Source of the DNA: Syntrophorhabdaceae bacterium | GTDB taxonomy: Bacteria; Desulfobacterota; Syntrophorhabdia; Syntrophorhabdales; Syntrophorhabdaceae | Reading direction: 5' to 3' | Length of the DNA stretch: 49,816 nt | NCBI GenBank assembly: GCA_026415675.1 | Contig: JAOAGQ010000012.1 | Span: 1 to 49,816 of the forward strand | The notes under the pieces: model-generated | Told to the model about the DNA's origin: nothing | What the model saw: the letters and a program-made list of their open reading frames with translations, nothing else | Database searches by the model: none | Position numbers and translations under genes: made by a program | Shown: one piece after another, positions 3,320 through 16,400 of the stretch | Layout: each line of letters opens with the position of its first letter | Position numbering within the stretch: the stretch's first letter is position 1

Positions 3320-5608
3320 TCAAAATGAAAAAATACCTATTCCGGCTTGGCCTAAGGAGATACCACCGTCATTACAGGGAACCTGTCTGTGGGTAAAGCA
3401 CTCAAATCCTCCATCCTCGAGTAAGGGCAAAACGAGATGCAACAGGAGCCTGTTTTGGAAGGAACCACCGCTCAACACAACTTTTCTTATCCCTTTCTCC
3501 TCTGAGATTACCGATACAACGGTTCTAATGATTTCTGCAACAGTCCTGTGGAATCTAAAACTTATCCCCCCGATATCTTTGCCTTTTTTGATGTCCGTTA
3601 TAATCGCCTCAAACATCTCCCCCAGGGCCACCTCCCACATACTCTTTTCTTTATAAATGGTGAAGGGATAACCACAGACCTTTTCATTCTTAGATGCCAC
3701 CATCTCAAGTTTTACCGCTGCCTGAGCTTCAAGGGTAACTATCTTGCAGAGGTTGAGAAGTGCGGAGACGGCGTCAAAGAGGCGACCGCAGGAAGAAGTG
3801 ATGGGTGTATTTATACTTTTCTCTATCTGGGTCTTTATGACCTCGATCTCCTCCTGGGATATACCCTCTAAAAAAGGCATATTCGGAATGTAACCAAAGA
3901 TTTTGTAAAGGTATGCGATTCCTGTACGGTAAGGCCTTTTTATGGAAATGTCTCCCCCTGGCAATGGCATGGGTTCTATCCTGCCCATTCTTTCGAAAAA
4001 AGGGTACTCGGTAACAACGAGAAATTCCCCTCCCCAGATTGTAGTGTCTGTGCCAAAGCCAGAGCCATCAAAGGCTACACCTATAGCAGGCCCCTTTAGG
4101 CCGTTATCTATCATACAGGATACAATGTGGGCATGGTGGTGTTGTACCCCTAAGATCGGGAGGGTGTTGCCCAACTCATAGGCGTATCGCGTAGAAAGAT
4201 AATCGGGATGGAGGTCGTGTACTATAAGTTCGGGGTGGATCCTAAAAAGTCTTTTGTAAAGCTCTATGGTTTCTCTGTAATACCTGAGGGTACCTATGTG
4301 ATCCAGATCCCCTATGTGCTGACTGACAAAACCAAATCGATTTTTTGTGAGGCAGAACGTATTCTTCTCCTGTGCCCCCAAAGCAAGAAGAGGTCTTTTT
4401 GATGGAAAGGGTAAGCTGACCGGATACGGGGCATATCCCCTTGCCCTTCTTAAGGGCATCTCTTCCCCTCTGAAAACCATGTAAACACTATCATCGTACC
4501 TTGAGCAGATATCTCTGTTATGCATGAGGAAATAATCGGCAATACCGGAAAGGGAAGACCTTGCCTCCCCATTATCAATGGCTATTGGCTCCTCTGAGAT
4601 GTTTCCGCTGGTCATCACCACAGGTCTTTTTACCTCTTCCATTATAAGATGGTGGATAGGTGTGTATGGTAACATAACACCTAAATACCTGTTATCAGGG
4701 GCGACCATAGGGGAGATGGCAGCATCTTCTTTTTTAAGGAGAATTACAATAGGCGATCTATGGGAGGTAAGAAGCCTTGCCTCTGCCTCGCTTAAAAAGC
4801 AGTATTTTTTTACTTCTTCTATATCTCTCATCATAACGGCAAAGGGTTTATCAGGCCTTACCTTCCTCCGTCTCAAAAGGAGAACGACCTTTGAATCTGT
4901 CGCATCACAGGCAAGCTGGAAACCCCCTAAACCTTTTATGGCCACTATGGACCCTCCCCTCAGGATTTCCGTTACCTTCCCTATAGGGTCTTTGTCTTTA
5001 ACTCTGTTACCAAGATTATCCTCAATCCATATCTCCGGCCCGCATATATGGCAACTGTTGGGCTGGGCGTGGAAACGTCTGTTTAAAGGGTCTTTGTATT
5101 CCTCGAGACACTTTTCACACATTACGAATTTTGCCATTGTCGTATTAGGTCTGTCATAGGGTATATCCTTTATAATCGTAAAACGGGGACCACAGTAAGT
5201 ACAGTTGATAAAAGGATAAAGGTATCTCCTGTTCTTATTATCGAATAGCTCTTTTAAACATAAAGGGCAGGTGGCAATATCTGGAGATAATATCTGGTAT
5301 CCAGGGTCTCTTCTACTCTTTCTTATTTCAAAGGAGAGGTACTTTTTTGGGAGGCCGTTCTCTACCTTTATGCTGACTATGTTTGCAACGGATGGTGCCT
5401 CTAACCTTATCCTTTTTATAAATTCTGACAGGACCCCCCCTTCCCCTTCTGCCTCTATCTTGACGGAACTGCTCGTATTTGCCACCCAACCCTTGATGCC
5501 CATTTCAGTGGCCAGTCTGTATATGAAGGGTCTAAAGCCCACACCCTGAACGACACCTCTGATAGTAATCTTTTTTAGTATGTGAGCCCCTTCAACCAAT
5601 CTATCCAA
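3320..5608 (-). CDS. hypF: HypF carbamoyltransferase, [NiFe] hydrogenase maturation
   Basis: HypF converts carbamoyl phosphate to carbamoyl-adenylate and transfers the carbamoyl group to the C-terminal Cys of HypE, the source of the cyanide ligands of the hydrogenase iron. All domains are visible: acylphosphatase-like (V-Q-G-V-G-F-R-P-F near residue 20-28), a double zinc-finger region with four CxxC pairs (about 115-190), a YrdC-like domain (about 205-390), and a Kae1-like transferase domain with H-H-H-A-H and G-V-A-F-D-G-S-G-F-G. Length of about 760 residues is normal. The longest start is a TTG at 5608 overlapping hypB by 34 bases; a second TTG at 5599 is possible. It is last in the leftward hypA-hypB-hypF transcript. 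Confidence 0.95.
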   Translation of the reverse strand: MDRLVEGAHILKKITIRGVVQGVGFRPFIYRLATEMGIKGWVANTSSSVKIEAEGEGGVLSEFIKRIRLEAPSVANIVSIKVENGLPKKYLSFEIRKSRRDPGYQILSPDIATCPLCLKELFDNKNRRYLYPFINCTYCGPRFTIIKDIPYDRPNTTMAKFVMCEKCLEEYKDPLNRRFHAQPNSCHICGPEIWIEDNLGNRVKDKDPIGKVTEILRGGSIVAIKGLGGFQLACDATDSKVVLLLRRRKVRPDKPFAVMMRDIEEVKKYCFLSEAEARLLTSHRSPIVILLKKEDAAISPMVAPDNRYLGVMLPYTPIHHLIMEEVKRPVVMTSGNISEEPIAIDNGEARSSLSGIADYFLMHNRDICSRYDDSVYMVFRGEEMPLRRARGYAPYPVSLPFPSKRPLLALGAQEKNTFCLTKNRFGFVSQHIGDLDHIGTLRYYRETIELYKRLFRIHPELIVHDLHPDYLSTRYAYELGNTLPILGVQHHHAHIVSCMIDNGLKGPAIGVAFDGSGFGTDTTIWGGEFLVVTEYPFFERMGRIEPMPLPGGDISIKRPYRTGIAYLYKIFGYIPNMPFLEGISQEEIEVIKTQIEKSINTPITSSCGRLFDAVSALLNLCKIVTLEAQAAVKLEMVASKNEKVCGYPFTIYKEKSMWEVALGEMFEAIITDIKKGKDIGGISFRFHRTVAEIIRTVVSVISEEKGIRKVVLSGGSFQNRLLLHLVLPLLEDGGFECFTHRQVPCNDGGISLGQAGIGIFSF

Positions 5609-6213
5609 TCACCAAGCCCCTCTTTTGTCTTGCATGACACTCTGAACACAGGGACTTCAGGATTCACTGAGTAGATACCCCTCTTGAATCTTTCAAAATC
5701 GAAATCGAAATAAGATAATGTGTCCCATTTGTTTAGAACAACGGCCTGGGCAGTTGAGAAAATACCGGGATACTTAAAGGGTTTGTCGTCCCCTTCAGGC
5801 ACGGATGCAACAATCACACGGACATGCTCCCCGAGGTTAAATTCTGCAGGACAGATGAGATTCCCCACGTTTTCGATGAATAGATACTTAAGCCCCTTCA
5901 AATCCAGCCTTTCTAACGCCTTTTTTATCATGGCCGCATCCAGATGGCATGCACCTCCTGTGTTAATCTGTACAACGGGCACACCAAGAGTACCTATCTT
6001 TTCAGCATCAATGGTTGAGGCGATATCCCCCTCGATTACCGCGGCACAGGAACCTATAGATTCCAGAGTGCCCATTATCAGACTGGTCTTTCCAGCTCCA
6101 GGGGATGCCATAATATTTATTGAAATAAGCTTGGCTCCGTCGAAAAACCTTCTATTCTCTTTAGCCCATTCCTCGTTTGCGTCGAGTATATCTTTAACCA
6201 CCTCTATCTTCAT
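5575..6213 (-). CDS. hypB: HypB GTPase, nickel insertion into hydrogenase
   Basis: HypB hydrolyses GTP to drive nickel delivery with HypA into the hydrogenase large subunit precursor. The P-loop M-A-S-P-G-A-G-K-T-S is at residues 35-44, a conserved metal-site segment G-G-A-C-H-L-D-A near 107-114, and N-V-G-N-L-I-C-P-A-E-F further on; N-K-W-D supplies guanine recognition. At 212 residues it is the short form lacking the N-terminal high-affinity Ni motif (C-x-x-G-C-x-C) and any His-rich stretch. It begins with ATG at 6213 inside the end of hypA (20-base overlap), consistent with translational coupling. The product is cytoplasmic. Confidence 0.96.
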   Translation of the reverse strand: MKIEVVKDILDANEEWAKENRRFFDGAKLISINIMASPGAGKTSLIMGTLESIGSCAAVIEGDIASTIDAEKIGTLGVPVVQINTGGACHLDAAMIKKALERLDLKGLKYLFIENVGNLICPAEFNLGEHVRVIVASVPEGDDKPFKYPGIFSTAQAVVLNKWDTLSYFDFDFERFKRGIYSVNPEVPVFRVSCKTKEGLGDWIDWLKGLTY

Positions 6214-6547
6214 CTCTATCCTCCACCTCTATGCTTTCTATATAGAGTTCCTTTCCAGAGATGAGTTTGCCTCCAGGCCTTCTACAGGCAGGACAAAGAC
6301 CATCTCCGTCTATACCAAACTCAAAAGAGCATAATCTGCACCTCATCCTCCCCTCGATTTTTTTGATATTCAATGATGCCCCCTCCAAAAGGGTACCCTT
6401 AGAGATCACATGGAAGCAGAAGATTAACGATTCCTCGACGACTCCTGAAAGCTCACCGATAACGAGGTTTATTGTTGAGACTTTTCTGCCTTTAGCCTCT
6501 TCCGTTACTAGTCCCACCATATTTTCCGTTATCGTTAATTCATGCAT
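6194..6547 (-). CDS. hypA: HypA nickel metallochaperone
   Basis: The protein starts M-H-E, whose His2 is the nickel ligand of HypA. The zinc site is formed by Cys70, Cys73, Cys85 and Cys88 (C-R-L-C and C-P-A-C). Length, 117 residues, is normal for the family. The ATG at 6545-6547 was chosen over an upstream extension because family members start here and because a promoter ends seven bases before it. No Shine-Dalgarno sequence precedes this ATG, so the message may be leaderless. It is the first gene of hypA-hypB-hypF and diverges from hypC. Confidence 0.95.
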   Translation of the reverse strand: MHELTITENMVGLVTEEAKGRKVSTINLVIGELSGVVEESLIFCFHVISKGTLLEGASLNIKKIEGRMRCRLCSFEFGIDGDGLCPACRRPGGKLISGKELYIESIEVEDRDEDRGG

Positions 6548-6554
6548 TTTTTGT

Positions 6555-6583
6555 ATATTACAACAAGAAAAGGCCACTTTCAA
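6555..6583 (-). promoter_or_regulatory. Promoter of hypABF, start point at or near the hypA ATG
   Basis: On the minus strand, a -35 TTGAAA (6578-6583), a 17-base spacer and a -10 TAATAT (6555-6560) form a good sigma70-type promoter. Only seven bases separate the -10 from the hypA ATG, so transcription should begin at or within a base or two of the start codon. Confidence 0.65.
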
Positions 6584-6595
6584 TTTAATCGACTC

Positions 6596-6625
6596 AAGTG
6601 TTTCTCAGAAAAAACAGAAACATTT
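6596..6625. promoter_or_regulatory. 30-bp palindrome between the divergent hyp promoters, probable operator
   Basis: AAGTGTTTCT (6596-6605) and AGAAACATTT (6616-6625) are inverted repeats matching at nine of ten positions, separated by ten bases. The centre (6610.5) lies almost midway between the two -35 boxes (6583 and 6633). A dimeric regulator bound here would contact both promoters. The binding protein is unknown; the NarL-type regulator at 10633-11265 is one candidate, since it is encoded downstream of hypE. Confidence 0.55.
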
Positions 6626-6632
6626 AAATTGC

Positions 6633-6662
6633 TTGATTGAAATATTATAACTACTTTATAAT
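6633..6662 (+). promoter_or_regulatory. Promoter of hypCDE, start point at or near the hypC ATG
   Basis: TTGATT (6633-6638), an 18-base spacer and a perfect TATAAT (6657-6662) form a strong sigma70-type promoter. Seven bases separate the -10 from the hypC ATG at 6670, the same distance as on the opposite strand for hypA, and hypC also lacks a Shine-Dalgarno sequence. Confidence 0.7.
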
Positions 6663-6669
6663 ATTTTAT

Positions 6670-6897
6670 ATGTGCCTTGCAATCCCTGCCCTCATCAAGC
6701 GAATTGATGGTTTCATGGCGGATGTGGACATCAACGGCATTGAGATGAGGGCCAATATCCAGTTCACCCCTCACGCTAAAGCGGGCGATTATATTATCAT
6801 CCATGCAGGCTACGGGATAAGCGTATTGGATATTGATGAAGCGGAAGAAACCTTAAAGCTCTTGAAGGAGATAGCAGGCACCGATGGACATCAATAG
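6670..6897 (+). CDS. hypC: HypC/HybG hydrogenase maturation chaperone
   Basis: HypC carries the Fe(CN)2CO unit with HypD and delivers it to the large subunit precursor. The 75-residue protein begins M-C-L-A-I-P, whose Cys2 is the essential iron ligand after Met removal, and has the conserved G-D-Y-I-I-I-H-A-G-Y-G segment around 40-50. The ATG at 6670 places Cys2 correctly; longer starts do not fit the family. The -10 box ends seven bases upstream and there is no ribosome site. Its 3' end overlaps hypD by 14 bases. Confidence 0.95.
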   Translation: MCLAIPALIKRIDGFMADVDINGIEMRANIQFTPHAKAGDYIIIHAGYGISVLDIDEAEETLKLLKEIAGTDGHQ

Positions 6898-7963
6898 AGC
6901 CTTTGGTTCCCCTGATATCGTTGAAAAACTAAGGCTGAAGATAGCCAACCTGTCAAAAAAGCAGATAAAAATAATGGAGTTTTGTGGTACCCATACCCAT
7001 GTGATATTCAGGTACGGGATAAGGCAACTTCTCCCTGAAACAATAAGCATGTTCTCCGGCCCGGGCTGTCCTGTATGTGTAACGGACGAGGCCGATATCG
7101 ACAGGATTATAGCGATGGCCGAGATCAAAGGGGTTATGATTGCTACCTTTGGGGATCTGATGAAGGTGCCGGGGAGTTCCGGAAGCCTCATCGATGCAAG
7201 GGCAGACGGAGCAAAGGTGGAGGTCGTATATTCCCCTTTGGACGCTGTTCATCTCGCCATTGACAATTCCCATCTCAACGTAGTTTTTCTGGGGGTGGGG
7301 TTCGAAACTACAGCCCCGGCAGTGGCAGCATCCATCGTTGAAGCGGAGAAGATAGGTCTTAACAATTACTATGTATTATCCCTCCATAAATTGACACCTC
7401 CTGCGATGAAGGCGATACTCGATACCCGCGAGGTAGACCTCGACGGGATTTTGTGTCCCGGCCATGTAAGCACGATAACAGGTTATAATGCCTGGAATTT
7501 TGTGTCGGATATTTATGGTATTCCTGCTGTTGTCGCTGGCTTCGAGCCTCTGGATATCCTCTGGGGGATCGGAGAGATAGTGGTTCAATGCGAGGCAGAA
7601 GAGGCACATGTTGTAAACGCCTATCCGAGAAGTGTAACAGCAGGGGGAAACCTAAAGGCAAAGGAAATGATAGAAAGGGTGTTCAAGACAGGGAATGCCT
7701 TCTGGAGGGGGCTTGGAGAACTCCCTGAAAGCGGTCTTTATTTAAGAGATGAGTATGGTCATTTTGATGCGTCAAAGGTTTTTCCTGTTCAAGGGGGTGA
7801 AAGAAGAGAGGTAAAAGGATGCAGGTGTGCAGAGGTAATAAGGGGTAAGATAAAGCCAGATGAATGTAACCTCTTTAGAACTCACTGTAACCCTTTTAGG
7901 CCAAAAGGCCCATGTATGGTTTCCTCAGAAGGGAGCTGTGCAGCCTATTATCTGTATGGATAA
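6884..7963 (+). CDS. hypD: HypD, Fe-S protein assembling the Fe(CN)2CO unit
   Basis: HypD is the scaffold on which the iron of the [NiFe] site receives CN and CO. Conserved motifs are all present: C-G-T-H at 34-37, G-P-G-C-P-V-C at 59-65, G-F-E-T-T-A-P, and C-P-G-H-V-S, plus the C-terminal Cys set (C-R-C, C-N-L-F, H-C-N-P, G-P-C-M, G-S-C-A) that binds the [4Fe-4S] cluster. Length of 359 residues is typical. It starts inside the end of hypC and its stop overlaps hypE by eight bases, so hypC-D-E should be co-translated. Confidence 0.97.
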   Translation: MDINRAFGSPDIVEKLRLKIANLSKKQIKIMEFCGTHTHVIFRYGIRQLLPETISMFSGPGCPVCVTDEADIDRIIAMAEIKGVMIATFGDLMKVPGSSGSLIDARADGAKVEVVYSPLDAVHLAIDNSHLNVVFLGVGFETTAPAVAASIVEAEKIGLNNYYVLSLHKLTPPAMKAILDTREVDLDGILCPGHVSTITGYNAWNFVSDIYGIPAVVAGFEPLDILWGIGEIVVQCEAEEAHVVNAYPRSVTAGGNLKAKEMIERVFKTGNAFWRGLGELPESGLYLRDEYGHFDASKVFPVQGGERREVKGCRCAEVIRGKIKPDECNLFRTHCNPFRPKGPCMVSSEGSCAAYYLYG

Positions 7964-8966
7964 GAATGTTATTTCTCTCAGTCATGGAAGTGGGGGCCTG
8001 ATAAGCAGGGAATTGGTTGAAGGTCTATTCTTAAAGCGTTTTCATAATAACGCCCTTATGGATCTTGAAGATGCATCAATACTCAACCTACCTATGGAAA
8101 AGATAGCGTTCACAACGGACAGCTTTGTGGTCAACCCTATTTTTTTTCCAGGAGGAGATATAGGGAGGCTCGCTGTATGCGGCACTGTCAACGACCTGTC
8201 CATGATGGGGGCAAAACCCCTTTATTTGAGTGTAGGCTTTATAATAGAAGAAGGTTTTCTTATTGAAGATTTAAAAAAGATAGTGGACTCCATGGGAGAG
8301 GCCGCTGAAGAGGCAGAAGTCTCGATCGTTTGCGGGGATACTAAGGTTGTTGAGAGGAATGCCGCCGATAATATTTTTATAAATACTGCCGGAATCGGGG
8401 TCATCCCTGAGGATGTGGATATTTCCGTCAAGAATGCAGTGCCCGGGGATGTGATTATTGTAAACGGGAACATAGGAGACCACGGGATCGCCGTTTTAAG
8501 TCAGAGAAAGGGTTTACATTTTAAAACTTATATAAAAAGTGATGTGGCCCCTCTCAATGGACTTACCGCATTGATGATTCAGAAAACAAGAAACATACAT
8601 ACCATGCGGGATCCAACGAGAGGGGGCCTGGCCACCACCTTAAAAGAGATAGCAATAGGCTCAAATGTAGGGATCGAGATAGATGAAGAAAGAATACCTG
8701 TCTCTGAAGGGGTAAGGAAGGCATGTGAGCTTTTGGGCCTTGACTGGTTATATCTCGCAAATGAAGGAAAGGCAGTTGTCGTTGTCCCTGAAGAGGAAGG
8801 GGAACAACTAATAGAAACCATGAAAAGGCACCCATACGGAGAGGGGGCAAAAATCATTGGTCGAGTTGTACCAAACTCCCCGGGGATAGTCACGATGAGA
8901 AATGCATATGGTGTAAGGAGGGTTATCGAGATGCTCGCAGGAGAACAGTATCCGAGAATTTGTTAG
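7956..8966 (+). CDS. hypE: HypE, thiocarbamate dehydratase for CN ligand synthesis
   Basis: HypE dehydrates the carbamoyl group received from HypF into a thiocyanate on its C-terminal Cys. The 336-residue protein ends P-R-I-C with that Cys last, begins with the L-S-H-G-S-G-G motif, and contains D-P-T-R-G-G-L-A-T-T of the AIR-synthase-like ATP fold. The start is the ATG at 7956, overlapping the hypD stop; an upstream extension in the same frame lies inside hypD and does not fit the family. HypF, its partner, is on the divergent transcript. A histidine kinase gene follows after 37 bases. Confidence 0.97.
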   Translation: MDKNVISLSHGSGGLISRELVEGLFLKRFHNNALMDLEDASILNLPMEKIAFTTDSFVVNPIFFPGGDIGRLAVCGTVNDLSMMGAKPLYLSVGFIIEEGFLIEDLKKIVDSMGEAAEEAEVSIVCGDTKVVERNAADNIFINTAGIGVIPEDVDISVKNAVPGDVIIVNGNIGDHGIAVLSQRKGLHFKTYIKSDVAPLNGLTALMIQKTRNIHTMRDPTRGGLATTLKEIAIGSNVGIEIDEERIPVSEGVRKACELLGLDWLYLANEGKAVVVVPEEEGEQLIETMKRHPYGEGAKIIGRVVPNSPGIVTMRNAYGVRRVIEMLAGEQYPRIC

Positions 8967-9003: not shown

Positions 9004-10626
9004 ATGATAAGGCACCTGAATAGACATAAAATGATTCTCTTGGTGTCCTCCTTTATCTTTATGGTTTGTCTGGCTGTAATAGATTATCTGATTGGCCCAT
9101 GGATCTCCCTCTCAATATTCTATTTGATACCCATCTTTGTTGTTACCTGGACTAAAGGAAAAAAGGCAGGCATAGCTGCCGCTTGTTTTGCCGCTCTCTC
9201 CTGGGGTATATCCGAAATCCTATGGCGCAAACATAATTTTCAGTATTCTTTAATACCTCTCTTCAACGGCGTCGCCCGATTAGTCCTATTCCTTGCCTTT
9301 CTCTATCTTATACTCCACTTAAAGAAAATGAATCAGGAGCTTGAGGAGACGATCGAGAGCAGAACGGCGATACTCACCGAAGAAATAAAGAGGCATAAAC
9401 AGGCCGAGGAGGCCCTACAGGCCTCCGAGACCCGTTATCGTCAGCAATTTGAAACTTCAAGGGATGGTATACTAATCCTCGAGGCGGAAACGGGACAGAT
9501 AGAAGATGTGAATCCTTTTTTCATAGAGATGACACGTTTTACAAGGGGTGAACTCATCGGAAGAAGATTGTGGAATATAGGCATGTTTAAGGATATGGAT
9601 GTGATAAGGTCCGCCTTTAAGATGATCAGAGATATGGGGTATGTACGGTACGATGATGTATCCCTTAAGACTAAGGAGGACCAGGAGATAATAGTCCAGC
9701 TCACTTGTAACGTATATGAGTTGGGTTGCAAAAAGATCGTCAACTGTAATTTTCGGGATATAACAGAGAAGAAAAGGGCAGAGGAGAAACTTAAAAAAGC
9801 ACAGGATGAACTGGAACAGAGGGTTCAGGAGAGAACGGCACAGTTACTGGAATCGAACAGACTTTTGAGACAGGAGATAGCGGAGCGGGAGATCGTGGAG
9901 CAGAAGCTTATGGAATCAAGGGAAAGGCTTAGGTTTTTAAGTGCCCATCTCCAGAACGTGAGGGAGCAGGAGAGGACTTTTCTCTCCCGGGAGTTACACG
10001 ACGAACTGGGACAGGTTTTGATGGGCATGAAGATGGATGTAAAATGGCTGGAAAAAAGGCTCCGGGAAGACGATAAGCCTGCTTTTGAAAGGATAGGGTC
10101 ACTCCTTACGAGTATCGACAATACAATCCAGACTGTACAGCAGATCTCAATGGCATTGAGGCCTGTTGTACTGGATGATTTTGGTTTGAGCGAGGCCATA
10201 AGGGTAGCAACAAGGGATTTTGAGAACAGGACAAAGATCCCCTGTGAGATCAAAATCGAACCCCAAAATATCATAGTAAATAGAGAGATATCGACCGCAG
10301 TATATAGGATCTTTCAGGAGGCCCTAACAAATATCATACGCCATGCCCATGCCCAAAAGGTCACTATTCATCTTAAGAGGAAGAGAAACAGACTAACCCT
10401 TGAAGTAAGTGATGATGGGAGGGGTATAAACAAAAGTGAGATAACGGATCCAAAGTCCATAGGTCTCACCGGGATGAGAGAGAGGGCAAGGGCCCTCGAT
10501 GGAATATTCACCATCACGGGGATACCAGGAAAAGGCACAACGGTAAATGTAAGTATTCCCCTCAAGGGGGGAACAAATAAAAATATTATTACCCATGAGG
10601 GGGAGGCAATATCTGGAAAGGAGTGA
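9004..10626 (+). CDS. Membrane sensor histidine kinase, NarX/DegS type, with PAS domain
   Basis: Hydrophobic segments in about residues 10-105 form three to four membrane spans with little external domain, followed by a coiled coil, a PAS domain (about 140-260, beginning Y-R-Q-Q-F-E-T-S-R-D-G-I-L), a second coiled coil, and a HisKA_3 dimerisation helix with E-L-H-D-E-L-G-Q whose phospho-acceptor is His332. The HATPase domain (about 420-525) has F-Q-E-A-L-T-N and D-D-G-R-G-I. The signal is unknown; PAS and membrane segments could sense redox state or a membrane-soluble molecule. It follows hypE by 37 bases and precedes its probable partner regulator by six, so the pair may control hydrogenase genes. 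Confidence 0.9.
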   Translation: MIRHLNRHKMILLVSSFIFMVCLAVIDYLIGPWISLSIFYLIPIFVVTWTKGKKAGIAAACFAALSWGISEILWRKHNFQYSLIPLFNGVARLVLFLAFLYLILHLKKMNQELEETIESRTAILTEEIKRHKQAEEALQASETRYRQQFETSRDGILILEAETGQIEDVNPFFIEMTRFTRGELIGRRLWNIGMFKDMDVIRSAFKMIRDMGYVRYDDVSLKTKEDQEIIVQLTCNVYELGCKKIVNCNFRDITEKKRAEEKLKKAQDELEQRVQERTAQLLESNRLLRQEIAEREIVEQKLMESRERLRFLSAHLQNVREQERTFLSRELHDELGQVLMGMKMDVKWLEKRLREDDKPAFERIGSLLTSIDNTIQTVQQISMALRPVVLDDFGLSEAIRVATRDFENRTKIPCEIKIEPQNIIVNREISTAVYRIFQEALTNIIRHAHAQKVTIHLKRKRNRLTLEVSDDGRGINKSEITDPKSIGLTGMRERARALDGIFTITGIPGKGTTVNVSIPLKGGTNKNIITHEGEAISGKE

Positions 10627-10632
10627 CGATAT

Positions 10633-11265
10633 ATGATAAACGTCATCATCGTTGATGACCATCCTGTGGTCATAAAGGGATTAAAGGAGATAATCCTTGA
10701 AAATTTCAGCAACCTCACCATAGATGATGCATCATCGGGGCACGAGCTTCTCGAAAAGATCCAAAAGGTAAAATATGATCTTGTGATCCTGGATATCTCT
10801 CTCCCCGATATAAATGGGCTCGAGGTATTGAAAGAAGTAAAGAAGAGGCAACCCCGACTTTCTGTCCTTATAATAAGCATGTATCCTGAAAACGATTATG
10901 CGATACGGGCTATAAAAGCAGGGGCAAAGGGTTATATAACGAAGAGAAGTGCCCCTGATGAGCTTATTCTCGCAATGCGTAAGATTCTGTCGGGAAAAAG
11001 ATACGTAAGCCCGACCTTCCTTGAACAGATGATCTTTGATTTTGAAGAGGAGCCCGAGAAGAGCCCGCACCAGAAGCTCTCCGACAGGGAATTACAGGTT
11101 ATGTGTCTCCTTGGAAAGGGCAAATGCATAAAAGAGATAGCCTACCATCTCCATCTAAGTGTCAATACGGTAAGGACATACAGGGCAAGAGTTTTAGAAA
11201 AGATAGGTTTAAAAGGCACAAACGAACTCATCCATTATGTGATAAAACATGGCTTGACCGACTGA
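10633..11265 (+). CDS. NarL/LuxR-family response regulator
   Basis: The 210-residue protein has a receiver domain with acidic pair Asp8-Asp9 and phospho-acceptor Asp54 (V-I-L-D-I-S-L-P-D), then a LuxR-type helix-turn-helix at about 145-205 (L-S-D-R-E-L-Q-V-M ... S-V-N-T-V-R-T-Y-R-A-R-V-L-E-K). Six bases separate it from the kinase, strongly indicating a cognate pair. The domain architecture, receiver plus GerE-type DNA-binding domain, implies a dimer binding inverted repeats; the palindrome at 6596-6625 is a candidate target. Confidence 0.93.
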   Translation: MINVIIVDDHPVVIKGLKEIILENFSNLTIDDASSGHELLEKIQKVKYDLVILDISLPDINGLEVLKEVKKRQPRLSVLIISMYPENDYAIRAIKAGAKGYITKRSAPDELILAMRKILSGKRYVSPTFLEQMIFDFEEEPEKSPHQKLSDRELQVMCLLGKGKCIKEIAYHLHLSVNTVRTYRARVLEKIGLKGTNELIHYVIKHGLTD

Positions 11266-11295
11266 TTGTAATCATAAATATGACACTCCTATATA
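11266..11295 (+). promoter_or_regulatory. Possible promoter of the hdr-mvh operon
   Basis: TTGTAA (11266-11271), an 18-base spacer and TATATA (11290-11295) resemble a sigma70 promoter overlapping the end of the regulator gene. It would give hdrC a leader of about 235 bases. The match is moderate and no other candidate in the gap is better. Confidence 0.35.
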
Positions 11296-11374
11296 CAAAA
11301 TGATGACAAAAAAAGTGGTAAATCAACTATAGACTTTATCATCATTAAAAAGACAATATATAGTCAGATTAGAA

Positions 11375-11401
11375 GTCCTAATTACTACAAAGTTATAGGA
11401 C
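11375..11401 (+). other. Small inverted repeat in the hdrC leader
   Basis: GTCCTA (11375-11380) pairs with TAGGAC (11396-11401), with an inner ACT/AGT pairing around ACAA. The stem is short and AT-rich. It lies in the 271-base gap between the regulator gene and hdrC and could be an RNA structure or a protein site; evidence is weak. Confidence 0.25.
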
Positions 11402-11405
11402 AATA

Positions 11406-11516
11406 ATGGAGACAAAAAAATTATCTTTTTATGATGTCAGGGTAGCAACATCTCGATTATCCTCCTCTTTTCCATTCGATAATTTTGCCGTACTAAAAAC
11501 ATTGTGGAGAGCATAA
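11406..11516 (+). CDS. Possible 36-aa leader peptide before hdrC
   Basis: An ATG at 11406, five bases after an AGGA, opens a 36-codon frame ending at TAA 11514-11516, 20 bases before the hdrC start. The peptide (M-E-T-K-K-L-S-F-Y-D-V...) is mixed in character with no membrane segment, and matches no family I know. It could be a translated leader coupling to hdrC or a chance frame. Confidence 0.25.
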   Translation: METKKLSFYDVRVATSRLSSSFPFDNFAVLKTLWRA

Positions 11517-12124: not shown

Positions 12125-13002
12125 AATTCGCCTATTATCCTGGTTGTTCATTGAAAGGTACCGGTCGGGCATACGAGAAATCCCTTCTAAACCTTTTTAA
12201 AGCACTCGATATCGAACTCATCGAAATACCTGACTGGAATTGCTGTGGTGCCACATTTTATATGTCTATAAACGAAGAAAAAGGGTTGTTTATGACCGCA
12301 AGAAATTTAAGCATAGCCCAGAACATGGGTCTCGATATCGTTGCCCCCTGTAGTGCCTGCTATCTGAATCTTTTAAAGGCGGTCAATGCCATTGAAGAAG
12401 GGGATGAGGTTGGACGGAAAATCCTCAAGGCCCTTGAATATGCGAACATCTCTTTTGATCCAACGTATATCCCCGAAATAAGACACCCCCTGGAGATCCT
12501 TGTCGATACTTATGGAGTAAAGAAACTCGTAAAAAAACAGGTGGTGAGTCTTGACCATCTGAACATAGTTCCCTACTACGGCTGTCTGATCGTTAGACCC
12601 TATACGAGATTTGACCACCATACGTATCCGACAAAGATGGACTTTCTTTTCGAATCATTGGGTACGAGGGTAATATCCGATTATCCCTTAAAAACAAGAT
12701 GCTGTGGGGGTACCCTTACAGGAACAATAGAGGAAATTGGTCTTGAACTCAACTACCTCCTTTTGAAGGAGGCAATCAGAAGGGGTGGAAATGTGATTGC
12801 TACCATCTGTCCTTTATGCCATTTCAACCTCGAGATGTTTCAGGATAAGATAGAGCGGGCTTATGGCAAGAGATACGGGATTCCTATACTCTATTTCACA
12901 CATATCGTAGGTAAGGCGATAGGACTTACAGACCACGAGATAGGTATCGATAATCTTCTCTACAAACCCCTCTGGGGCGAAACAAAGAGGGAGGTTGTGT
13001 AA
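12121..13002 (+). CDS. hdrB: Heterodisulfide reductase subunit B-like (two CCG domains)
   Basis: HdrB holds two noncubane [4Fe-4S] clusters where a disulfide or other terminal acceptor is reduced. The 293-residue protein has two CCG repeats: G-C-S-L-K-G-T-G ... N-C-C-G-A-T ... C-S-A-C, and Y-G-C ... R-C-C-G-G-T ... C-P-L-C. The acceptor in bacteria without coenzyme M is unknown. It begins at GAAGATG overlapping hdrC, and its TAA overlaps the hdrA ATG by one base, so the three proteins should be made in fixed ratio. Confidence 0.93.
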   Translation: MKFAYYPGCSLKGTGRAYEKSLLNLFKALDIELIEIPDWNCCGATFYMSINEEKGLFMTARNLSIAQNMGLDIVAPCSACYLNLLKAVNAIEEGDEVGRKILKALEYANISFDPTYIPEIRHPLEILVDTYGVKKLVKKQVVSLDHLNIVPYYGCLIVRPYTRFDHHTYPTKMDFLFESLGTRVISDYPLKTRCCGGTLTGTIEEIGLELNYLLLKEAIRRGGNVIATICPLCHFNLEMFQDKIERAYGKRYGIPILYFTHIVGKAIGLTDHEIGIDNLLYKPLWGETKREVV

Positions 13003-16000
13003 TGGGTGAGATTATAGAGTTGAAGGGCAAAGGGGTTCCAAAGGTAGGGGTATACATCTGCCATTGCGGGTTCAACATTGCATCGAAAGTGCGGGTGGAT
13101 GAAGTTGTCGATTTTGCAGCTACATTACCGAATGTGGTGGTGGCAAGGAGCAATAAATACACATGTTCAGATCCAGGACAGGAGGTGATAAGGAAGGACA
13201 TAAAGGAGATGGGGCTCGACAGGGTTGTTGTTGCCTCCTGTACCCCCCTCCTCCATGAACATACATTCAGGAAAACGGTGGAGACCGGGGGGCTAAACCC
13301 GTTCCTCTTCCATATGGTGAACATACGGGAAGACGTATCATGGGTGACCGATGATGGAGATAGGGCCACGGAGAAGGCAAAGGCCTTAGTGGCCGCAGGG
13401 GTAAGAAGGGTTCTCTACCAGAAGCCCCTTGAGAAGAGAAGGGCCGCAATAAAATCGGATGTACTGATCATAGGTGGCGGTATAGGTGGCATAACCGCTG
13501 CCCTCGATATAGCTGATTCGGGTAAGAAGGTAACCCTTGTTGAGAGGGAACCGACTATAGGCGGTGTTATGGCAAAGTTCGATAAGACCTTCCCCACCCT
13601 CGACTGTGCTGCCTGCATATTGACCCCAAAGATGACCGCTGTGGCCTCCCATCCAAACATAAAACTTTTGACCTTTTCCGAGGTAAAGGATGTAAGTGGA
13701 TATATAGGTGATTTTCGTGCATCGATAGTGAAGAAACCAAGGAGGGTTATCGAGAGCAAATGTACAGGCTGCGGGGAATGCGCCAATGTTTGCCCTGTGT
13801 ATATGCCCAATGCCTTCGATGAGAATCTCGGGATGAGAAAGGCAACATACAAACCTTTTGCCCAGGCCGTGCCTAATGTGCACACCATAGAGAAGACAGG
13901 GACATCCCCCTGTACCTATACATGCCCTGCTGGAATCAATGCCCACGGTTATGTGGCCCTTGCCTCTGCAGGCAAATACGATGAGGCTTTTAATCTGATC
14001 CTCGAATCCACACCCCTGGTGGCTACCCTTGGGAGGGCATGTTACGCCCCCTGTGAGGAAGAGTGTACACGAGGGGAACTGGAGGGAACGGTAAGGATCA
14101 GACGTCTCAAAAGGTTTATCGCCGACCGCTATTATGAAAACCACCCTGAGCCCGAATACGGACCACCGGATAAGGAGCTGGATAAAAAAGTTGCGATTGT
14201 CGGTTCAGGCCCTGCAGGATTAACCGCCGCCTATTTTTTAAGGAAAATGGGTTATCAGGTAACGATCTTCGAAAAGGAACCCCGTCCTGGAGGAATGTTA
14301 AGGGTTGGCATCCCCGAATATCGTCTACCTAACGATGTCCTCGATAGAGATATAAAAAATGTGCTGGCCCTTGGCGTTGGTATACAGACTTACACCGAGG
14401 TAAAAAGCCTCGATGATCTCAGAAAAAAGGGGTTCGATGCGATTTTCCTTGCAACCGGTACCCACGGGGTGAGGAAGATGGATATAGAGGGAGAGAATCT
14501 CTCAGGGGTCGTCAACTGCATGGAGTTTTTAACCTCTATAAATTACGGAAAGAAGACCGATTTGACAGGAAAGACCATACTTGTCGTTGGTGGGGGAAAC
14601 GCGGCCCTCGATTCGGCGAGGGCCGCATTGAGGCTTGGGGCAAGAAAGGTCACCATACAATACAGACGCTCGAGGGCAGAGATGCCGGCCTTTCCGGAGG
14701 AAATTGATGCAGCGGAAAAAGAGGGCATCACCATATCATACCTTACCACGCCTGTAAAATTTGAGGGGGAAGGGGGGAAGCTTAAATATGTCCAGAGCGT
14801 ACAGATGCAACTGGGAGAACCCGATGATACGGGGAGAAGAAAACCGATCCCCATCCCCGGTTCTGAATCCATTGCAAACATAGATATGGCGATCATTGCC
14901 ATAGGCCTCATGCCCACCACAAGCCCCTGGGCAGAGCAACTAAATCTGAACAGGGACGGGACAATCCAGGTAGACCCCGAGACATTACAGACAAGTCTCC
15001 CCCATGTGTTCGCCGGAGGAGATGTGGTACTTGGACCGTCCATCATAGTAAACGCCATCGGACAGGGAAGACGGGCTGCCCACTATATAGATAAATATCT
15101 AAAGGGAGAGGACCTCAAGGCAACCACTTTCGTATTCAGGTCTGCCGATATGGTCTCAAAGCATGATGTACTTACCAGAAGCATCATAACACATGCCATG
15201 AGCTTACCTAAGAAGGAGCTTCCTGTGGATGAACGTATCACGAATTTCAAGGAAGTGGAGATTGCACTGACAGAAGAGGAGGCATTGAAGGATACGAAAA
15301 GGTGTCTTAATTGTTCTGTATGTTCTGACTGCCATCTCTGTAAAACCATATGCTCTGCCGAGGCAATAGATTATGGCATGAAAGAGGAAGTAATCGACGT
15401 GGAGGCAGGGGTCATCATTGTAACTACCGGATTTAAGCCTTTTGACCCGAAGAGGATAAGCGCTTATGGCTACGGACGTTTCCCAAATGTATATACTTCC
15501 CTTGAAGTTGAAAGGCTTGTCAATTCCTCAGGGCCAACCCAAGGGGAGGTGATACTAAGGGATGGAAGGAAACCGGAACGAATAGGGATTATCCACTGCG
15601 TGGGGTCGAGGGATAAGGAATATAATCAATACTGTTCAAAGGTATGCTGCATGTATTCCCTGAAGCTCGCCCATCTATTGAAGGAAAGGACAGGGGCCGA
15701 CATTTATAACTTCTACATAGACATGAGGACACCAGGTAAGGGTTATGAAGAGTTCTACCACAAACTCCTCGAGGAAGGGGTACATTTTGTCCGGGGGAGG
15801 GTAGGCGAGGTGACAGATTGGGCCGTTACGGCCAAGGAAGAGGGAAAACTAATAATCAGGGTAGAGGACACCCTCCTCGGCATGGTAAGGAGGATACCTG
15901 TAGATATGGTTGTCCTCTCAGTGGCGTTGGAACCGCAGAAAGATGCGGATGATGTGAGGAGGCTACTTAACCTCTCCTGTTCCTCTGAAGGGTTCTTCCT

Positions 16001-16400
16001 CGAGCGCCACCCTAAACTTGCACCGGTAGCCACATTTACAGACGGTATATACATTGCCGGGGCCTGTCAGGGCCCAAAGGATATTCCAGAGACCGTGGCC
16101 CAGGCCAGTGCTGCGGCAGCCCAGGCCTTGTCCCTTGTGGATAGGGGGTATGTGGAGCTGGAGCCGAATACGGCGTATATAAACTCTGAACTCTGTTCAG
16201 GCTGTCATGTGTGTATAGCCATATGCCCTTATGGGGCGATCACATACAATTCTGAAAAGAAGGTGGCGGAATCGAACGAGGTCCTCTGCAAAGGTTGTGG
16301 AAGTTGTGTTGCAGCGTGTCCAAGCGGTGCTATAGACCAGCATCTATTCGAAAACGAGCAGATTATAAATGAACTTGAGGGGGTATTGAGCTATGTTTGA
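13002..16400 (+). CDS. hdrA: HdrA with an inserted GltD/NfnB-like flavoprotein module
   Basis: At 1132 residues this is far longer than a standard HdrA of about 650. The N-terminal HdrA part has Y-I-C-H-C-G, an FAD-binding G-G-G-I-G-G near 158-163, and a [4Fe-4S] motif at Cys254-264. From about residue 300 to 690 a glutamate-synthase-small-subunit-like module is inserted: T-C-P-A-G-I-N, a second cysteine cluster, FAD-binding G-S-G-P-A-G near 398, NAD(P)-binding G-G-G-N-A-A near 531, and A-G-G-D near 671. HdrA sequence resumes at Cys768 (C-S-V-C-S-D-C-H-L-C) and ends with two ferredoxin motifs (about 1064 and 1093). HdrA flavin bifurcates electrons; the insert implies an additional NAD(P)H connection. 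It overlaps mvhD by eight bases. Confidence 0.93.
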   Translation: MGEIIELKGKGVPKVGVYICHCGFNIASKVRVDEVVDFAATLPNVVVARSNKYTCSDPGQEVIRKDIKEMGLDRVVVASCTPLLHEHTFRKTVETGGLNPFLFHMVNIREDVSWVTDDGDRATEKAKALVAAGVRRVLYQKPLEKRRAAIKSDVLIIGGGIGGITAALDIADSGKKVTLVEREPTIGGVMAKFDKTFPTLDCAACILTPKMTAVASHPNIKLLTFSEVKDVSGYIGDFRASIVKKPRRVIESKCTGCGECANVCPVYMPNAFDENLGMRKATYKPFAQAVPNVHTIEKTGTSPCTYTCPAGINAHGYVALASAGKYDEAFNLILESTPLVATLGRACYAPCEEECTRGELEGTVRIRRLKRFIADRYYENHPEPEYGPPDKELDKKVAIVGSGPAGLTAAYFLRKMGYQVTIFEKEPRPGGMLRVGIPEYRLPNDVLDRDIKNVLALGVGIQTYTEVKSLDDLRKKGFDAIFLATGTHGVRKMDIEGENLSGVVNCMEFLTSINYGKKTDLTGKTILVVGGGNAALDSARAALRLGARKVTIQYRRSRAEMPAFPEEIDAAEKEGITISYLTTPVKFEGEGGKLKYVQSVQMQLGEPDDTGRRKPIPIPGSESIANIDMAIIAIGLMPTTSPWAEQLNLNRDGTIQVDPETLQTSLPHVFAGGDVVLGPSIIVNAIGQGRRAAHYIDKYLKGEDLKATTFVFRSADMVSKHDVLTRSIITHAMSLPKKELPVDERITNFKEVEIALTEEEALKDTKRCLNCSVCSDCHLCKTICSAEAIDYGMKEEVIDVEAGVIIVTTGFKPFDPKRISAYGYGRFPNVYTSLEVERLVNSSGPTQGEVILRDGRKPERIGIIHCVGSRDKEYNQYCSKVCCMYSLKLAHLLKERTGADIYNFYIDMRTPGKGYEEFYHKLLEEGVHFVRGRVGEVTDWAVTAKEEGKLIIRVEDTLLGMVRRIPVDMVVLSVALEPQKDADDVRRLLNLSCSSEGFFLERHPKLAPVATFTDGIYIAGACQGPKDIPETVAQASAAAAQALSLVDRGYVELEPNTAYINSELCSGCHVCIAICPYGAITYNSEKKVAESNEVLCKGCGSCVAACPSGAIDQHLFENEQIINELEGVLSYV

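Follow-up and report, generated by a model that had tools for sequence, protein, structure and literature searches.

Divergent hypA and hypC starts with closely spaced -10 boxes suggest a leaderless promoter pair in a Syntrophorhabdaceae bacterium

The closest described counterparts of the locus analysed here are the TA-led genes of Zheng et al. 2011 (PMC3160421), whose TANNNT box precedes the start codon by about 12 bp (roughly 10-13 bp), and, for the palindrome at its centre, the operators of deltaproteobacterial NikR, which have the form GTGTTAC-N13/14-GTAACAC (PMC545781). The hypA and hypC genes of a Syntrophorhabdaceae bacterium, located in a window of 49,816 nt (the whole stretch of DNA that was analysed), share with the TA-led class a TANNNT -10 box about 12-13 bp 5' of an AUG start and the lack of a Shine-Dalgarno (SD) site, and, like that class, they belong to a minority within a mainly SD-using genome. 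The mechanism would be that of the class; what differs is the arrangement, with two such starts back to back over 122 bp. Matching the class in box position, SD absence and genome-wide positional enrichment, hypA and hypC are mostly ordinary and probably add two further members to the known TA-led leaderless genes. The sole paper that we found to contain both 'leaderless' and 'hypC' concerns AUGUG start sites in E. coli.

The features of the locus, in window coordinates, are as follows.

6194..6547, minus strand: hypA, lead gene of hypA-hypB-hypF; Pfam PF01155, E 4.8e-30, match from residue 1; start MHEL
6560-6555, minus strand: hypA -10 box TAATAT, ending 7 nt before the ATG; promoter score 9/12
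6583-6578, minus strand: hypA -35 box TTGAAA, spacer of 17 to the -10 box
6596..6625, no strand: imperfect palindrome AAGTGTTTCT-N10-AGAAACATTT between the -35 boxes, 9/10 arm pairs; a candidate operator, unproven
6633-6638, plus strand: hypC -35 box TTGATT, spacer of 18 to the -10 box
6640..6666, no strand: second inverted repeat AAATATTATA-N7-TATAATATTT, perfect 10-bp arms, spacer 7, overlapping the hypC -10 box
6657-6662, plus strand: hypC -10 box TATAAT, ending 7 nt before the ATG; promoter score 10/12
6670..6897, plus strand: hypC, lead gene of hypC-hypD-hypE; Pfam PF01455, E 7.1e-22, match from residue 1; start MCLAIP

An earlier, sequence-only reading had described the two genes as divergent across 122 bp, with exactly seven bases between -10 box and ATG on both strands and no SD site before either start, and all three statements held on re-examination. 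The hypA ATG occupies 6547-6545 on the minus strand (N-terminus MHELTI) and the hypC ATG 6670-6672 on the plus strand (N-terminus MCLAIPA); the first T of both -10 boxes falls at -13 relative to the start codon, and no match of at least 3 nt to the anti-SD complement precedes either start. Both start codons are secure because the proteins match their Pfam families from the first residue, and His2 of HypA and Cys2 of HypC are residues that we take to pin the starts on grounds of protein chemistry, so that the spacing is no artefact of start annotation. The same reading had called each -35/-10 pair 'good'; the pairs are indeed present, but the word is generous for hypA, since its -10 box is weak, with 4/6 consensus positions.

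The two elements are the best sigma-70-like promoters on their respective strands of the 122-bp region, and their joint placement is rarely reproduced by chance. In 3000 dinucleotide shuffles of the region, both strands carried a promoter scoring 9/12 or better with its end 5-10 nt away from the start codon in 0.07% of cases; for one or the other start taken singly, the figures were 3.3% and 2.6%. The second inverted repeat (6640-6666), which the sequence-only reading had missed, is AT-rich, carries little significance and is probably driven by composition.

The same spacing recurs across the genome. We took operon-leading genes from sampled stretches totalling 1.34 Mb of the 2.56-Mb genome, using a simple in-house gene caller whose hexamer coding model is blind to SD and promoter information, and counted promoters that score 9/12 or better and stop 5-10 nt short of the start codon, in comparison with seven control windows. 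Of the 147 SD-less leader genes, 20 had such a promoter, where a control window averaged 2.1; 18 remained once the hyp pair was removed. The exploratory half yielded 8/68 (hypA and hypC among the 8), with 0.7 per control window. The first held-out batch, a small one of 34 SD-less leaders, contained no excess (1 found where 0.6 was expected), and the full held-out set gave 12/79 against 1.4 in the control (Poisson p 4e-8). SD-led leaders displayed no excess (5/203, against 4-13 in the controls), and the two groups differed in close-promoter frequency (Fisher p 8e-5). On these counts, predicted leaderless starts form a real minority class in this genome. Two unrelated divergent pairs carry leaderless-type promoters on both sides, namely an SBP_bac_5/radical-SAM pair (C3 9294/9411, gap L036 9295-9410), in which a marginal SD match of 4 nt precedes the plus-strand gene, and an amylase-like/T2SSE pair (L163 6471/6564 on C61, gap 6472-6563). 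The hyp genes are therefore not alone in having the mirror-image layout, and the leaderless mode, as read from promoter position, would not be special to them either.

Comparison with related genomes separates the hypC start from the divergent layout. The nearest hyp sets were found in two genomes, G037 and G039, from another family of the same order; their cluster proteins include the closest Hyp proteins, with HypD identities of 64% and 59%, and in the window's own family, hypC genes show 33-40% identity and for the most part have SD sites. The Hyp proteins of the window (3320-8966) resemble those of another family in the order more closely than those of their own, which suggests transfer or differential loss. 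Both related clusters lie on one strand, in the order hypA-B-F-C-D-E in G037 and hypA-F-C-D-E in G039, where hypB is missing at the locus, and hypC begins 231 bp and 91 bp past hypF, respectively. Their hypC starts, like the one described here, have leaderless-type spacing and are not preceded by an SD match of 4 nt or more: TTGTAC-17-TATAGT-8-ATG in G037, with a weak -35 box (read from the sequence; the scan gave 8/12 in another register), and TTGAGC-17-TATACT-5-ATG in G039, scoring 9/12. They differ in their single-strand arrangement, in the lack of the palindrome and at hypA, where a TATAAT, read from the printed sequences, lies further from the start.

Among 54 hypC loci from this genome and its phylum relatives, a close -10 box without an SD site before hypC occurred in three, those of this genome, G037 and G039, and a divergent hypA/hypC pair occurred in this genome only. 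A further 67 hypC genes, drawn from a wider named collection, included none with the leaderless combination or with a divergent hypA. A first HypD scan for named relatives confirmed none; a second, with best segments of at most 56% identity, returned relatives with neither a divergent hypA nor a leaderless hypC.

The palindrome, 30 bp at 6596-6625 between the -35 boxes, is nearly central, as the sequence-only reading had stated, with a centre (6610.5) 2 bp from that of the intergenic region (6608.5). Some inverted repeat of this quality arose in 25% of the shuffles; 2.2% had a central one and 2.8% one whose arms contain 3 or more G/C, so the departure from chance is marginal (2-3%) and was judged after the fact. 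The same reading had proposed that one dimeric regulator switches both halves of the maturation set, and had pointed to a genome search for the palindrome. That search returned one exact site for the core TGTTTCT-N10-AGAAACA and no like sites above control: with up to 3 mismatches, 185 sites were found where the reversed control gave 224, and the only copy with 1 mismatch falls inside an ispH-like coding sequence. The palindrome was also absent, within 2 mismatches, near hypA and hypC of G037 and G039, in a search whose positive control, the window, worked. With a site that is unique in the genome, not enriched, missing from the two relatives and marginal against shuffles, the proposed common switch gained no positive support. 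Given genome uniqueness and near matches below control, we rejected a palindrome regulon, and a single-strand hairpin gave no signal (z -0.6). We consider a chance or lineage-specific sequence most likely, and an operator role for some regulator rather unlikely.

If a dimeric repressor or activator governed both promoters through the palindrome, NikR would be the best-placed candidate. Besides the almost central position between the -35 boxes, the genome encodes a NikR (PF08753, C73, E 1.9e-31), and G037 and G039 lack both NikR and the palindrome. The palindrome's half-site, GTGTTTC, is similar to the GTGTTAC of deltaproteobacterial NikR, the total length is close to that of NikR operators, and a hydrogenase operon has been predicted to be under NikR control (PMC545781). 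However, the site here, GTGTTTC-N12-GAAACAT, has a shorter spacing and 3 half-site mismatches and does not qualify as a NikR box; two NikR-box scans of the genome found fewer sites than the reversed controls (63 vs 101 and 63 vs 93), leaving no regulon of like sites, and the palindrome core itself is unique, with near matches under control. A CbiM-type nickel transporter, considered as a second NikR target, was not found in the genome. We rejected the palindrome as a NikR box, and regard a dimeric operator over both promoters as unlikely.

The nikR gene (L116, G000:C73) lies downstream of a small CooT-like protein, named by reading its sequence, and a short unidentified ORF. In the window, a PAS histidine kinase and a LuxR-type response regulator (9004-11265, with the response regulator at 10633-11265), a possible local regulator, lie between hypE and the Hdr/Mvh operon; shared control with that operon was rejected, as no palindrome-like site occurs in 11266-11503 within 3 mismatches. 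At 13002-16400, the window encodes an HdrA-like protein of 1132 aa, into which, judged by eye, a GltD-like NAD(P)H oxidoreductase part is inserted, and at 1464-2741, close to the contig end in lower-G+C DNA, a plasmid-type Replicase/PriCT_1 protein.

Ordinary leaders, short or long, would offer another account of the two starts, with transcripts beginning further upstream, an AT-rich region mimicking -10 boxes, and an unstructured leader permitting SD-independent translation. The intergenic region has 23% G+C, AT-rich short unstructured leaders can be translated without an SD site as well, a promoter outside the searched consensus may exist at hypA or hypC, and, next to the 4/6 match of the hypA -10 box, a generic scan across 5500-8000 yielded 6 promoter-like sites where 4.2 were expected, a non-significant difference. 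Yet neither strand of the 122 bp holds a further promoter of at least 9/12, save two overlapping 9/12 registers of the hypC element itself, the position-specific enrichment across the genome is confined to SD-less genes, and the hypC spacing recurs in G037 and G039. We judge this account improbable. Still more improbable is a local regulator with a single target that would recognise the palindrome and switch the two leaderless hyp transcripts jointly, tying nickel- or hydrogenase-dependent control to a translation of the maturation set that needs no SD site.

We consider it likely that the locus combines two separate leaderless promoters, an older hypC start, a later rearrangement and a palindrome without a proven role. 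That hypA and hypC are leaderless, as the sequence-only reading had proposed, is well supported because the positional enrichment extends to the held-out set and like spacing precedes hypC in two relatives. Under this explanation, hypA-hypB-hypF and hypC-hypD-hypE would be served by two separate sigma-70-type promoters with -10 boxes 7 nt from the start codons, transcription would begin at the AUG or within a few bases of it, and translation would follow the leaderless, TA-led route used by a minority of operon-leading genes here. The sequence features, the enrichment across the genome and the positions in relatives are observed; the transcript starts, leaderless initiation by 70S ribosomes and the direction of the rearrangement are what we infer. 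The leaderless hypC promoter, which in G037 and G039 sits before hypC and downstream of hypF, probably predates the divergent layout; as that layout is seen only in this genome, a rearrangement probably set existing starts back to back. The parsimonious order is probably the leaderless hypC promoter first, followed by a rearrangement in this lineage that would have inverted the hypA-side block and brought its start alongside.

On this reading, hypA and hypC would form a clean leaderless pair with start codons that protein chemistry pins down, in a lineage where leaderless initiation emerges as a quantified minority class, and the locus would provide an example of how rearrangement can build a divergent promoter pair out of pre-existing parts.
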